A stretch of DNA of 64,000 bases, taken from Phreatobacter sp. (GTDB lineage Bacteria; Pseudomonadota; Alphaproteobacteria; Rhizobiales; Phreatobacteraceae). The notes beneath the pieces are model-generated. The model had not been told where the DNA came from. It searched no databases and saw nothing but the letters and a program-made list of their open reading frames with translations. The position numbers and the translations under genes are program-made. The stretch is from the NCBI RefSeq assembly GCF_030691135.1, contig NZ_JAUYFA010000011.1, positions 1-64,000 on the forward strand. Direction: 5' to 3'. Within the stretch, counting starts at the first letter, position 1; each line of letters starts with the position of its first letter. Shown one piece after another: positions 41,375 through 47,379 of this stretch.

Positions 41375-42202
41375 TCAGGTGATGCGCCTGACGCTGGCGA
41401 CGATCTCTTCGGGCTCGAACAGCCGCTTCCAGTCCGGCTTCAGGATCGTGTCCTTGCCGAAGACGATGGCCTTGTTGCAGGCGTCCGAGAAGACGCCGTC
41501 GATCTCGCGGAAGGTCACGGCGGCGAGGATGTTCATGTGGCCGAGCAGGAAGTCGCGCGCCGCCTCGCGCGGCACGCCGCGGCGGATGGCCTCTTCCATC
41601 GCCTCCCGCATGGCATCGAGCAGGGTGGCGCAGACGGTCTCCGACAGGCCAGGCTCGAGGATGGCCATCTGCTCGACGGTGACCCGATGTGAACGCATCA
41701 CCGGCGCCCAGATCGCCCGCGCGACCTCTTCGCCCAGCGCATAATGCGTCTCCGGCCCCTGCATCAGCGCGCTGACGATGTGCTGCTTGGCGGCCACACC
41801 GCCGAAATGGTCGGCCTTCGCCGCCGGATCGGTCTCGTCATTGAAGATCGGCGGATGGCAGGGATGGGTGATGAAATAGGTGATGTCCGCGCGCTCCGGC
41901 AGGTGGCCGGCATGGGGCGAAGCGGCGTCGAGAATGATGACGATCGTGCCCGGGGCGAGTTTCGGCACGAGCGTCGCGGCGACGCTGCCGATGGCGGTGT
42001 CCGGCACGGCAAGGACGACCACGGGCGCGCCGTCGATGGCGGCATCCGCCTCCAGGCAGGCGATGCCATAGGCGTCGCGGAAGCGGTCCCGCCCTGCGGG
42101 ACTGACCTCGACCGGCCGGGTCTCGAAGCGCGAGGCCATCAGGTTGCGGCCGATCCGCATCCCCATTTTTCCGCCCGCCCCGAACAATGCGACTGCCGTC
42201 AT
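41375..42202 (-). CDS. apnO: Phosphogluconate dehydrogenase C-terminal domain protein, probable D-apionate oxidoisomerase ApnO
   Basis: 275 residues. The Rossmann motif is VALFGAGGKMGMRIGRNL, and the C-terminal helical domain (ETHYALGEEVARAIWAP, EAIRRGVPREAARDFLLGHMN) is the 6-phosphogluconate-dehydrogenase-like fold of the PDGLA family. Enzymes of this type, next to a RuBisCO-like protein and a DUF1537 kinase, have been assigned as ApnO, which turns D-apionate into 3-oxo-isoapionate. The start at 42200-42202 has GGGAG nine bases upstream. It is divergent from the RuBisCO-like gene with an operator-like palindrome between. Confidence 0.8.
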   Translation of the reverse strand: MTAVALFGAGGKMGMRIGRNLMASRFETRPVEVSPAGRDRFRDAYGIACLEADAAIDGAPVVVLAVPDTAIGSVAATLVPKLAPGTIVIILDAASPHAGHLPERADITYFITHPCHPPIFNDETDPAAKADHFGGVAAKQHIVSALMQGPETHYALGEEVARAIWAPVMRSHRVTVEQMAILEPGLSETVCATLLDAMREAMEEAIRRGVPREAARDFLLGHMNILAAVTFREIDGVFSDACNKAIVFGKDTILKPDWKRLFEPEEIVASVRRIT

Positions 42203-42275
42203 CGACCGAACTCCCAGCCTGCCCACCATGGGCTGGACTCGTTCCATGCCGAGGCCGTGATTGTCAATCTGGTAT

Positions 42276-42294
42276 GATGACCTTATGAGTCATC
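42276..42294. promoter_or_regulatory. Inverted repeat in the apnO/RuBisCO-like divergent promoter
   Basis: GATGAC (42276-42281) and GTCATC (42289-42294) are a perfect inverted repeat with a 7-bp spacer. It lies 74 bp upstream of apnO and 32 bp upstream of the RuBisCO-like GTG. The FadR-type regulator at 44945 is the obvious candidate protein. Confidence 0.5.
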
Positions 42295-42325
42295 GATCCT
42301 TCTCTCGCGAACAGGAACGGCGGAC

Positions 42326-43588
42326 GTGGACACGGACCAGCGCATCGAGGCGGATTACTGGCTCGAAACATCGGGCGACCCGCGGCGGACGGCCGAAATC
42401 ATGGCGGGCGAACAGTCCAGCGGCACCTTTGTCGCCGTGCCGGGCGAGACGCCGGAACTCACCGCAAGGGCCGCCGCTCGTATCGAGGCGCTGGAGTTGC
42501 TCGACATCGCGACTACTCCGTCCCTGCCCTCCGCCCGGGAGAGCGCGGCCGGATCGGGCCGCTATGCCCGGGCGCGGGTGACGCTGTCCTGGCCACTGGC
42601 GACCCTCGGGCCCTCGCTGCCGAACCTGACGGCCACGGTGGCCGGGAATCTCTACGAGCTGGCCCCTGTCACTGGCCTGCGCCTGCTCGACATCCGGCTG
42701 CCTCCAGCCTTCGCCGCCGCCTATCGCGGACCGCAGTTCGGGGTCGCCGGCACACGCCGCCTCGCGGGCGTCGACCAAGGCCCGCTGATCGGCACCATCG
42801 TCAAGCCGAGCGTCGGCTTCGGGCCGGCCGAGACGGCCGATCTGGTTGCGACACTGGCCGGCGCCGGCATCGATTTTATCAAGGACGACGAGTTGCAGTC
42901 CGACGGTCCGCTGTGCCCCTTCGAGGCCCGCGTCGACGCGGTCATGGCGGTCCTCGACGCCGAGGCGCAGCGCCTCGGCCGGAAGGTGATGTATGCCTTC
43001 AACCTCACCGGCGACCTCGACCAGATGCGCCGCCGGCACGATCATGTGCTGGCACGTGGCGGCACCTGCGTCATGGCGAGCGTCAACGCGGTCGGCCTCG
43101 TCGGCATGATCGAACTCGGCCGCCATTCACAATTGCCGATCCATGCCCACCGCAACGGCTGGGGCTACCTGTCGCGGTCGCCCGGACTCGGCTGGGACTA
43201 CCGCGCCTGGCACAAGCTCTGGCGCCTGGCGGGAGCCGACCACATGCATGTGAATGGCCTGGCCAACAAGTTCAGCGAGAGCGACGAGAGCGTCATCGCC
43301 TCGGCCCGCGCCTGCGGGGAACCGCTCTTCGCCGAGCGGCCCGACGCCATCATGCCGGTTTTCTCGTCCGGGCAGACGGTCCGGCAGGCGCCGGGAACCT
43401 TCGCGGCGCTCGGCACCACCGATCTCATCTTCGCCGCGGGCGGCGGCATCATCGCCCATCCGGATGGCCCCGCCGCCGGTGTCGGCGCGCTGCGCGAGGC
43501 CTGGGAGGCGGCGGTTGCCGGCGAGGACCTCGACGTCGCCGCGCGGTCCCGGCCGGCGCTCGCCGCGGCGCTCCGGTACTTCGCATGA
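42326..43588 (+). CDS. RuBisCO-like protein (form IV), probable 3-oxo-isoapionate-4-phosphate decarboxylase or transcarboxylase/hydrolase
   Basis: 420 residues with a full RuBisCO large-subunit fold. GTIVKPSVGFGP holds K160 (substrate-site lysine) and DFIKDDE holds K186-D188-E189, the carbamylation lysine and Mg ligands. Later HAHRNGWGYL, HMHVNGLANKF and a phosphate-loop region with FAAGGGI are seen. Members beside ApnO and OiaK genes are OiaX (giving erythrulose phosphate and CO2) or OiaT (giving 3-phosphoglycerate and glycolate); which one cannot be read by eye. GTG start with AGGAA upstream. Overlaps the kinase by 4 bp. Confidence 0.85.
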   Translation: MDTDQRIEADYWLETSGDPRRTAEIMAGEQSSGTFVAVPGETPELTARAAARIEALELLDIATTPSLPSARESAAGSGRYARARVTLSWPLATLGPSLPNLTATVAGNLYELAPVTGLRLLDIRLPPAFAAAYRGPQFGVAGTRRLAGVDQGPLIGTIVKPSVGFGPAETADLVATLAGAGIDFIKDDELQSDGPLCPFEARVDAVMAVLDAEAQRLGRKVMYAFNLTGDLDQMRRRHDHVLARGGTCVMASVNAVGLVGMIELGRHSQLPIHAHRNGWGYLSRSPGLGWDYRAWHKLWRLAGADHMHVNGLANKFSESDESVIASARACGEPLFAERPDAIMPVFSSGQTVRQAPGTFAALGTTDLIFAAGGGIIAHPDGPAAGVGALREAWEAAVAGEDLDVAARSRPALAAALRYFA

Positions 43589-44955
43589 GCCCGTTGCCCC
43601 CGGGACCGCTGGTCGCCTTCTACGGGGATGATTTTACCGGATCGTCCGCGGTGATGGAGGTGATGGCCTTTGCCGGCCTCAGCGCGGTCATGTTCCTCAG
43701 CCCGCCGACGCCGGCGCGCCTCGCCGCCTTCGCCGACCGGCGCTGCATCGGGATCGCCGGGATCGCCCGCTCCCGCCCGCCGGACTGGATGGACGAACAC
43801 CTACCGCCGCTCTACGCGGCGCTCGGCCGGATCGGCGCGCCCCTGGTCCACTACAAGGTGTGCTCGACCTTCGACTCGTCGCCGCAGATCGGGTCCATCG
43901 GCCGGGCGATCGATCTCGGCGCCCAGGCCTTCCCGGCACGCTGGATTCCGCTCGTCGTCGGCGCACCGGCGCTGGAGCGCTACCAGGTCTTCGGCCAGCT
44001 CTTCGCCGGCCTTAACGGCACGGCCCATCGCCTCGATCGCCATCCGGTCATGGCCCGTCATCCCGTGACACCGATGGACGAGGCCGATCTCATCCGCCAT
44101 CTCGGGCGGCAGACCGGCCGCCGTATGGGCCTGATCGACTTTCCGTCCATCAAGCGCGGCGACGGCGACCGCAAGCGCCGGGCGCTGGCGGGAGATGACG
44201 CGCCGGTCATCGCCATCGACGTGCTCGACGACGAGACACTCGCGGCGGCGGGGGCGCTGATCTGGCAGGCCCGGTCCGAAGGCCGTTTCGTCGCCGGATC
44301 GCAGGGCGTCGAATATGCGCTCGTGGCGCATTGGCGCGAAGCCGGGCTGATCCCGTGCGACGCCCCGGTTCCGACGACGGCCCCAGCCGAGCGAATCGCC
44401 GTGGTCTCCGGGTCCTGCTCCCCCGTCACGGCCGGGCAGATCGCCCATGCCGAGGAGAACGGTTTCGCGTCGCTGCGGCTCGATGTCACCCAGGCGGTCG
44501 ATGATGTGACATGGGACCGCGAGATCGGGCGGGTGCTGGAACAGGCCAAGTCCATCGCCGCGGCCGCGTCGCCGCTCATCTACACGGCGCGCGGGCCCGA
44601 CGATCCGGCAATCGCCGCCCTGGCCGAGGCGTGCCGCAGCGCCGGCGCCGATCCCGCCCGCGTCAATGACCGGATCGGCGCCGGGCTCGGTCGGGTTCTG
44701 GAAGCCATGATCGCAGATGGCGGCCTGACCCGCGCGGCGATCGCCGGCGGCGATACGTCCGGACATGCCGCCCTGGCCCTCGGCATTGACGCGCTCGAAG
44801 CCATCGCCCCGCTGGCCGCCGGTTCGCCGCTGTGCCGGGCCCATGCCACCCGGCCGGGCCGCGACGGTCTCGAACTCGCCCTCAAGGGCGGCCAGATGGG
44901 TACGCCGGATTTCTTCAGCGCGGTTCGCGCCGGGAGACGTCTTGATGCCGCCTGA
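43585..44955 (+). CDS. oiaK: Four-carbon acid sugar kinase family protein (DUF1537), probable 3-oxo-isoapionate kinase OiaK
   Basis: 456 residues. The N-terminal substrate domain starts FYGDDFTGSSAVMEVM, the GDDxTG motif of DUF1537 kinases. The C-terminal nucleotide-binding domain has VVSGSCSPVTAGQI and AGGDTSGHAALALGI, then LKGGQMGTPDFF. This family phosphorylates four-carbon acids and related compounds; beside ApnO and a RuBisCO-like protein the fitting substrate is 3-oxo-isoapionate. It is translationally coupled to the RuBisCO-like gene (ATGA) and its end overlaps the regulator by 11 bp. Confidence 0.88.
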   Translation: MSPLPPGPLVAFYGDDFTGSSAVMEVMAFAGLSAVMFLSPPTPARLAAFADRRCIGIAGIARSRPPDWMDEHLPPLYAALGRIGAPLVHYKVCSTFDSSPQIGSIGRAIDLGAQAFPARWIPLVVGAPALERYQVFGQLFAGLNGTAHRLDRHPVMARHPVTPMDEADLIRHLGRQTGRRMGLIDFPSIKRGDGDRKRRALAGDDAPVIAIDVLDDETLAAAGALIWQARSEGRFVAGSQGVEYALVAHWREAGLIPCDAPVPTTAPAERIAVVSGSCSPVTAGQIAHAEENGFASLRLDVTQAVDDVTWDREIGRVLEQAKSIAAAASPLIYTARGPDDPAIAALAEACRSAGADPARVNDRIGAGLGRVLEAMIADGGLTRAAIAGGDTSGHAALALGIDALEAIAPLAAGSPLCRAHATRPGRDGLELALKGGQMGTPDFFSAVRAGRRLDAA

Positions 44956-45691
44956 ACCCCGCTCCCCGAGCCCGCCCCTGTCCCCCGAACCGATCCAGCG
45001 CCGCAAGCTCTTCCACGAGGTGATGGACCGCCTGCTGGCGAGGATCCGCGCCGGCGAGTTCGCGCCGGGATCGCAGTTGCCCTCGGAGCGCGAGTTGATG
45101 GACGCCTATGGGGTGGGACGGCCCGCCATCCGCGAGGCCTTCCAGCAGCTCGAGCGGTCGGGGATCGTCACGATCAGCCATGGCGAGCGCGCCCGGGTCG
45201 TGCTGCCGACACCCGCCGCCATGATGCACACCATCACCGATGCGGCGCGCTATCTGCTCGATGTCGAGCCACAGACGCTCGATCACCTCAAGGAAGCGCG
45301 GGCCTTCCTGGAGACGGGCCTGGCCCGCCTCGCGGCAGAACGGGCCGAGCCGGCCGGTCTCGCCCTGCTCCAGGCCCGCCTCGACGAGCAGCGGCAGGCG
45401 GGACTGGAGGACTTCCTGCGTTGCGACATCGCCTTCCATCGCCAGATCGCGGCCATGGCCGGCAACCCGATCTTCCCGGCCGTGGTCGAGGGGCTGCTGG
45501 CATGGCTCGGCGATCACTATACGGCGCTCGTCCGGGCGCCCGGCGTGGAGAACGTCACGCTGCAGGAGCACCAGTGCATCCTCGAGGCCATCGCCGCGCG
45601 GGACCCCGGGCGGGCGGCGACCGCGATGTCCGATCACCTCTACCGCGCCAGCGCCCTGTACCGTCACGGCTCCGCGGACAGGCGGGCCTAG
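44945..45691 (+). CDS. FadR/GntR family transcriptional regulator of the apionate-type operon
   Basis: 248 residues. The winged HTH is KLFHEVMDRLLARIRAGE, PGSQLPSERELMDAYGVGRP and AIREAFQQLERSG. The FCD domain has LEAIAARDPGRAATAMSDHL and FHRQIAAMAGNPIF with likely metal-binding His. It is the last gene of the RuBisCO-like operon and probably its local regulator through the inverted repeat near 42285. NanR-like members look alike. Confidence 0.9.
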   Translation: MPPEPRSPSPPLSPEPIQRRKLFHEVMDRLLARIRAGEFAPGSQLPSERELMDAYGVGRPAIREAFQQLERSGIVTISHGERARVVLPTPAAMMHTITDAARYLLDVEPQTLDHLKEARAFLETGLARLAAERAEPAGLALLQARLDEQRQAGLEDFLRCDIAFHRQIAAMAGNPIFPAVVEGLLAWLGDHYTALVRAPGVENVTLQEHQCILEAIAARDPGRAATAMSDHLYRASALYRHGSADRRA

Positions 45692-46326: not shown

Positions 46327-46411
46327 TGGTGGGGGAAGCAGGACTCGAACCTGCGAAGGCGTAGCCAGCGGATTTACAGTCCGCCCCCTTTGCCGCTCGG
46401 GACATTCCCCC
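46327..46411 (-). tRNA. tRNA-Tyr (anticodon GTA)
   Basis: 85 nt including an encoded CCA (plus strand TGG at 46327-46329). The acceptor stem GGGGGAA at 46405-46411 pairs with TTCCCCC at 46331-46337. The anticodon is at 46375-46377, in ACT-GTA-AA. A long variable arm, expected for class II tRNA-Tyr, and a standard TTCGAGTCC T-loop are present. Confidence 0.95.
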
Positions 46412-46545: not shown

Positions 46546-47379
46546 ATGACGACATCCCCTCCCAAGGGCCCGAAGAAGCCCTTCCGCCCCTTCTCCAAGC
46601 CCGGCAAACCGTTCAAGGGCCGCGGCGGCCGCGTGCTGCGCGAGCCTGCTCCGGAATTCGCTACCGGCACCGTCCTGCTCTACGGCTGGCACACCGTGTC
46701 GGAGGCGCTGCGCAACAAGGACCGCCGGATCAGGCTGCTGCTCGCCACCGAGAACGGCGCCAAGCGGCTCGACGAGGAGGGAATCGCCCACGAGGCGACC
46801 ATCGTCCCGGTGCGTGACATCGACAGGCGCCTGGCGGCCACCCCGGATGCGGTGCATCAAGGGCTCTTCGCCGAGGCCGATGCGCTCGATCCGCCCTATC
46901 TCGAGACGATGCCGGCGGAGGGCGTGCTGCTGCTCCTCGACCAGATCACCGATCCGCACAATGTCGGCGCCATCGTCCGCTCGGCCGCCGCCTTCGGCGT
47001 GAAGGCCATCGTCACCACCAACCGCCACTCGCCGGAGGCCACCGGCGTTCTCGCCAAGAGCGCCTCGGGCGGTCTCGAACATGTGCCCTTCGTCACGGTG
47101 CAGAACCTCTCCCGCGCCATGACCGACCTCCGGAAGCGCGGCTTCCAGGTCATCGGCCTCGACAGCGAGGGCGAGACGGATCTCGACGCCGTCACGCTGC
47201 GCGAGCCCGTGGCACTCGTGCTCGGGGCCGAGGGCAAGGGCCTGCGGCAGCTGACACGCGATACCTGCGACACGCTGGCGCGCATCGACATGCCGGGCGC
47301 CATCAAGAGCCTCAACGTCTCGAACGCGGCGGCGCTGTCGCTCTATGCGGTGACGACGCGCCTCGGCCTCAGGCGCTGA
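46546..47379 (+). CDS. rlmB: 23S rRNA (guanosine(2251)-2'-O)-methyltransferase RlmB
   Basis: 277 residues. SpoU/TrmH family motifs are seen: LLLLDQITDPHNVGAIVRSAAAFG, LVLGAEGKGLRQLT and IDMPGAIKSLNVSNAAA, the last two being the knotted AdoMet site. An N-terminal substrate-binding domain (LYGWHTVSEALRNK) marks the RlmB type. It methylates the ribose of G2251 in 23S rRNA. The first 35 residues form a basic tail. The stop abuts the convergent hypothetical gene. Confidence 0.93.
   Translation: MTTSPPKGPKKPFRPFSKPGKPFKGRGGRVLREPAPEFATGTVLLYGWHTVSEALRNKDRRIRLLLATENGAKRLDEEGIAHEATIVPVRDIDRRLAATPDAVHQGLFAEADALDPPYLETMPAEGVLLLLDQITDPHNVGAIVRSAAAFGVKAIVTTNRHSPEATGVLAKSASGGLEHVPFVTVQNLSRAMTDLRKRGFQVIGLDSEGETDLDAVTLREPVALVLGAEGKGLRQLTRDTCDTLARIDMPGAIKSLNVSNAAALSLYAVTTRLGLRR

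Follow-up and report, generated by a model that had tools for sequence, protein, structure and literature searches.

D-Apionate is the acid derived from a sugar of plant cell walls. Two described systems for its breakdown differ in what a RuBisCO-like protein (RLP) does with 3-oxo-isoapionate 4-phosphate. In its account of these enzymes, a review citing Carter 2018 ascribes decarboxylation of this compound to the RLP of Agrobacterium radiobacter K84 and its transcarboxylation/hydrolysis to the RLP of Xanthobacter autotrophicus ATCC BAA-1158 (PMC6302742), and the functional assignment of the latter protein rests on this review. The two classes are termed here OiaX and OiaT, respectively. ATCC BAA-1158, which we take to be X. 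autotrophicus strain Py2, is represented in our comparison by a genome recognised through a replicon sequence identical over 8 kb to the Py2 plasmid CP000782. The Py2 genome encodes a single RLP of the kind treated below (E <= 1e-40), which lies between the genes of ApnO and a DUF1537 kinase; these genes all face the same way and are accompanied by an MFS transporter gene and, in divergent orientation, a LysR gene.

The window, a stretch of 64,000 nucleotides from Phreatobacter sp. that was analysed as a whole, carries the following features at the locus under study.

41375..42247, minus strand: predicted ApnO-type (PDGLA) NAD(P)-dependent D-apionate oxidoisomerase, from Pfam PGDH_C and homology to ApnO
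42269..42280, no strand assigned: candidate NanR-type regulator site CTGGTATGATGA, between the divergent genes
42326..43588, plus strand: RLP, predicted OiaT type (3-oxo-isoapionate-4-phosphate transcarboxylase/hydrolase), from identity to the Py2 protein, tree and residue signature
43585..44955, plus strand: DUF1537 kinase, predicted OiaK type (3-oxo-isoapionate kinase), from OiaK as best NCBIfam model and homology to the Py2 kinase
44945..45691, plus strand: GntR/FCD regulator of the NanR subfamily, from NCBIfam NF003011

The locus shares with the Py2 operon the grouping of ApnO, RLP and DUF1537 kinase in the same order (with ApnO reversed in the window), an identical active-site signature in the RLP, and a genome in which ApnL was not found; it differs in its divergent ApnO gene, its NanR-type regulator and the lack of a linked transporter. 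The first-pass annotation had described a four-gene operon, and the four genes are indeed in place, but strictly these are three overlapping genes plus one divergent gene. Their coupling by overlaps is confirmed by the coordinates: the RLP gene (GTG start, 420 aa) overlaps the kinase start with its stop by 4 nt, the kinase gene overlaps the regulator gene by 11 nt, and the ApnO-type gene diverges from all three on the opposite strand, its true start probably being the ATG at 42202 (MTAVALFGAGG) as judged from the extents of homologues. A sigma-70 scan of the region found no promoter. Further along the window, a tRNA-Tyr (gta) lies at 46327-46411 on the minus strand, adjoined by an rRNA 2'-O-methyltransferase-like (SpoU) gene at 46546-47379.

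A pseudogene or artefact was ruled out by the intact genes and by dN/dS values of 0.06-0.29 against relatives, which show that RLP, kinase and ApnO evolve under purifying selection. An RLP 98% identical to that of the window is found in a Phreatobacter MAG, and this compact layout, with ApnO diverging from RLP, kinase and NanR, recurs in the nearest Bosea loci, which speaks for a stable rather than decayed arrangement.

Pfam and NCBIfam agree with the families first named for the four products (RLP, DUF1537 kinase, GntR-type regulator, PDGLA dehydrogenase). The ApnO-type protein matches Pfam PGDH_C with 243 bits, has an NAD-binding domain, scores 402 bits against PDB 5t57, and is 66% identical to ApnO of Py2 and 70% to ApnO from an OiaX operon; these domains and the homology to ApnO of both operon types place it with the D-apionate oxidoisomerases of the PDGLA family. 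For the kinase, OiaK is by far the best NCBIfam model (NF042436), yet its 608 bits stay below the cut-off of 700 bits, as do the 575 bits of the kinase from a Microvirga ApnL operon. The window kinase is 52% identical to that of Py2, and we call it OiaK-type from context, not as a member of the NCBIfam model. The regulator passes the NanR subfamily model NF003011 (283 bits, cut-off 260).

We consider it likely that these genes represent the lower half of D-apiose/D-apionate catabolism by the OiaT branch, entered at apionate and held under NanR-type repression, where substrate, products and regulation are those that we infer. ApnO would oxidise and rearrange D-apionate to 3-oxo-isoapionate, the DUF1537 kinase would phosphorylate this at C4, and the RLP, carbamylated and Mg-dependent, would move the carboxyl group and hydrolyse the product into 3-phosphoglycerate and glycolate, which would then pass into lower glycolysis and glycolate oxidation, respectively. 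Glycolate could be oxidised by a GlcD-like protein and its GlcE-like neighbour on contig 42, the GlcD match being under the curated cut-off. The NanR-type regulator would repress both divergent promoters via CTGGTATGATGA until an intermediate appears, and the cell would either start from apionate or receive it from others.

The simplest reading is that the pathway is entered at D-apionate, because neither an apiose dehydrogenase nor an apionate lactonase is found in the genome. Searches of the window's own assembly (99.93% complete) did not find ApnL, while a positive control was found in an Ancylobacter genome; ApnL was likewise found in 0 of 12 genomes searched in the genus Phreatobacter, nor was it found in Py2 and two relatives. 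No ApsD homologue was found in the three cluster-carrying Phreatobacter genomes, the window's own included. The absences reported in the first-pass annotation for apiose dehydrogenase and lactonase thus extend to the whole genome, and they fit, together with the lack of ApnL in Py2, its suggestion of a route starting at apionate. Its remark that no dedicated transporter is present also stands, since no transporter gene was found beside the four genes; a search of the Phreatobacter genomes for a homologue of the MFS transporter of Py2 found none either. The apiose clusters of Microvirga, Ancylobacter, Inquilinus and Paraburkholderia resemble the window in their RLP (64-74% identical), ApnO, kinase and NanR, but also include sugar transporters and ApnL, ApsD or both, none of which is present at this locus.

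We compared the neighbourhoods of 86 distinct loci of the window RLP class with those of 26 OiaX-type loci. Within the window class, ApnL or ApsD occurs in 31 of the 58 loci with ApnO against 0/28 without it, and a DUF2291/ribose-type ABC sugar transporter accompanies 15 of those 31 but none of the remaining 27 ApnO loci. This distribution bears on the possibility that D-apiose or apionolactone is the entering substrate, with unrelated enzymes replacing ApsD and ApnL and the lower pathway running as in the OiaT branch. Our search of other dehydrogenase and lactonase families was less than exhaustive, which leaves room for such replacements, yet with ApnL missing throughout the genus genomes searched and in Py2, ApsD homologues missing in the cluster-carrying genomes, and the ABC transporter confined to loci with ApnL/ApsD, we regard this entry as unlikely. 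Among the ApnO loci, TRAP transporters showed no significant association with a lack of ApnL/ApsD (p = 0.13) and are therefore not counted as evidence.

The NanR gene is found in 49 of 58 ApnO-linked loci of the window class and in 1/28 without ApnO. In the loci without ApnO, TRAP transporters often appear instead, along with genes for SDR and LysR proteins, so members of the RLP class do not all share one substrate. The wider RLP group also has another common type of operon, which consists of LysR, SDR, RLP and DUF1537 kinase and mostly lacks ApnO; TRAP genes are often part of it, and genes for pyruvate kinase or enolase sometimes (L022, L031, L034, L054, L061, L069, L121). At four loci (L063, L071, L108, L120) no DUF1537 kinase was found near the window-class RLP. 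PDB 3nwr, an RLP of Burkholderia fungorum, belongs to the same family as the window RLP (438 bits) and has the same signature, but falls into a sister clade, where loci may carry TRAP genes and lack ApnO. With part of the RLP clade in such LysR/SDR/TRAP settings, and an RLP oxygenase described in the D-hamamelose pathway of Ochrobactrum anthropi (PMC8914248, PMC10173188), the window cluster might degrade another branched sugar acid, e.g., hamamelonate, its RLP working as an oxygenase. We find this improbable for a locus that has ApnO, in a class where ApnL/ApsD genes appear only where ApnO does, and with ApnL/ApsD operons among its neighbours in the tree, for example that of Microvirga ossetica (RLP 70% identical).

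The RLP itself is a Pfam RuBisCO_large protein (204 bits), 62% identical to the RLP of Py2 and 45% to OiaX (44-47% to proteins annotated as OiaX by NCBI). In a tree of 98 RLPs, in which the D-hamamelose pathway RLP of O. anthropi was not included, the window and Py2 proteins share a clade of 71 rows (98% SH-aLRT), while all OiaX-type proteins form a separate clade (100% SH-aLRT); the RLP thus does not group with MtnW or a different form IV group, the outcome that was to count against the first reading. MtnW (DK-MTP-1-P enolase) was rejected by the scores against the MtnW models (123 bits vs a cut-off of 514, and 157 vs 409), as were RuBisCO forms I-III (form III model: 216 bits, cut-off 497; tree position far from form I). 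No OiaT-specific model turned up, and the OiaT placement is given by homology to the X. autotrophicus enzyme, with a common clade apart from OiaX, and by the linked ApnO and DUF1537 kinase genes.

Most RuBisCO catalytic residues are kept in the RLP. The carbamylation lysine and metal ligands, noticed already at first sight, are K186, D188 and E189 and correspond to K201, D203 and E204 of RuBisCO; K160, H275, R276, H308, K315, N108 and E29 are also present. In the alignment with RuBisCO, 27 rows of OiaX-type proteins have D60, G123 and Q327, with G or C at 379, whereas the RLPs of the window, Py2, PDB 3nwr and nearly all other class members have E60, N123, H327 and S379 as in RuBisCO, and the OiaX-only changes E60D, N123G and H327Q are absent from the window protein. 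In RuBisCO, the residues at these four positions serve carboxylation chemistry. Their retention would fit an enzyme whose reaction includes re-carboxylation and hydrolysis and is not limited to decarboxylation.

The OiaX operons of Rhizobium and Sinorhizobium have ApnO, the kinase family, a NanR-type regulator and a predicted operator in common with the window, but they differ in the RLP and often carry TIM and RpiB isomerase genes. TIM or RpiB genes lie near 9/26 OiaX-type RLPs against 1/86 of the window class (p = 5e-6, a value that overstates certainty, as identical RLPs were removed but related loci treated as independent). The isomerases had been noted as missing from the window, which holds genome-wide for RpiB, not found in the assembly, but not for TIM, of which the genome has one. 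Pyruvate kinase or enolase genes occur near six window-class loci and no OiaX-type locus, a distribution that, though small in number, agrees with 3-phosphoglycerate as the product. Because of the tree, the residue signature and the class-wide isomerase context, the earlier preference for OiaT over OiaX, which had been based on the missing isomerases, is strengthened, and the RLP is very probably of the OiaT kind, giving 3-phosphoglycerate and glycolate. That it is instead an OiaX decarboxylase forming L-erythrulose 1-phosphate, which is then isomerised to D-erythrose 4-phosphate, is very improbable: ApnO and kinase are common to both branches and OiaX (NF042437) is the best NCBIfam model, yet the 451 bits are far under its cut-off of 700 bits, the protein lies outside the OiaX clade, its active-site positions are unlike those of all OiaX sequences, and the genome has a single TIM and no RpiB.

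As for regulation in the proposed OiaT-type pathway, the 12-mer CTGGTATGATGA is found in one copy per genome, always between the divergent genes, in the three cluster-carrying Phreatobacter genomes, and in zero copies in two Phreatobacter genomes with more distant RLPs. The RLPs of those two genomes, at L128 (G003) and L129 (G006), belong to different subclades and are 55% and 53% identical, respectively. Of 76 related loci that have a NanR gene, 38 contain TGGTATGATGA, against 2/36 without NanR, and scrambled controls were found in 0-2 of the 76. This conserved box of 11-12 bp is a mark of NanR-linked apiose/apionate operons whether their RLP is of the OiaT or the OiaX type. We predict that the NanR-type regulator probably uses it as its operator, a detail that is new. 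At some TGGTATGATGA sites, the right half gives a TGGT-N11-ACCA symmetry.

The cluster is a compact new member of the known OiaT branch and largely ordinary, without the steps before apionate. What it adds, from sequence comparison, is a residue signature separating the OiaT and OiaX classes of RLP. It is a doubtful though conceivable further step that the Phreatobacter/Bosea subclade is specialised on another branched sugar acid, or lives by scavenging apionate that other microbes release, without ever using apiose itself. The annotation of proteins in this class goes no further than 'ribulose-bisphosphate carboxylase large subunit family protein', and OiaT-type apionate users therefore go unrecognised. 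Together with the predicted operator, the residue signature would let OiaT and OiaX operons be found and told apart by sequence, and may suggest which organisms start at apionate instead of apiose.
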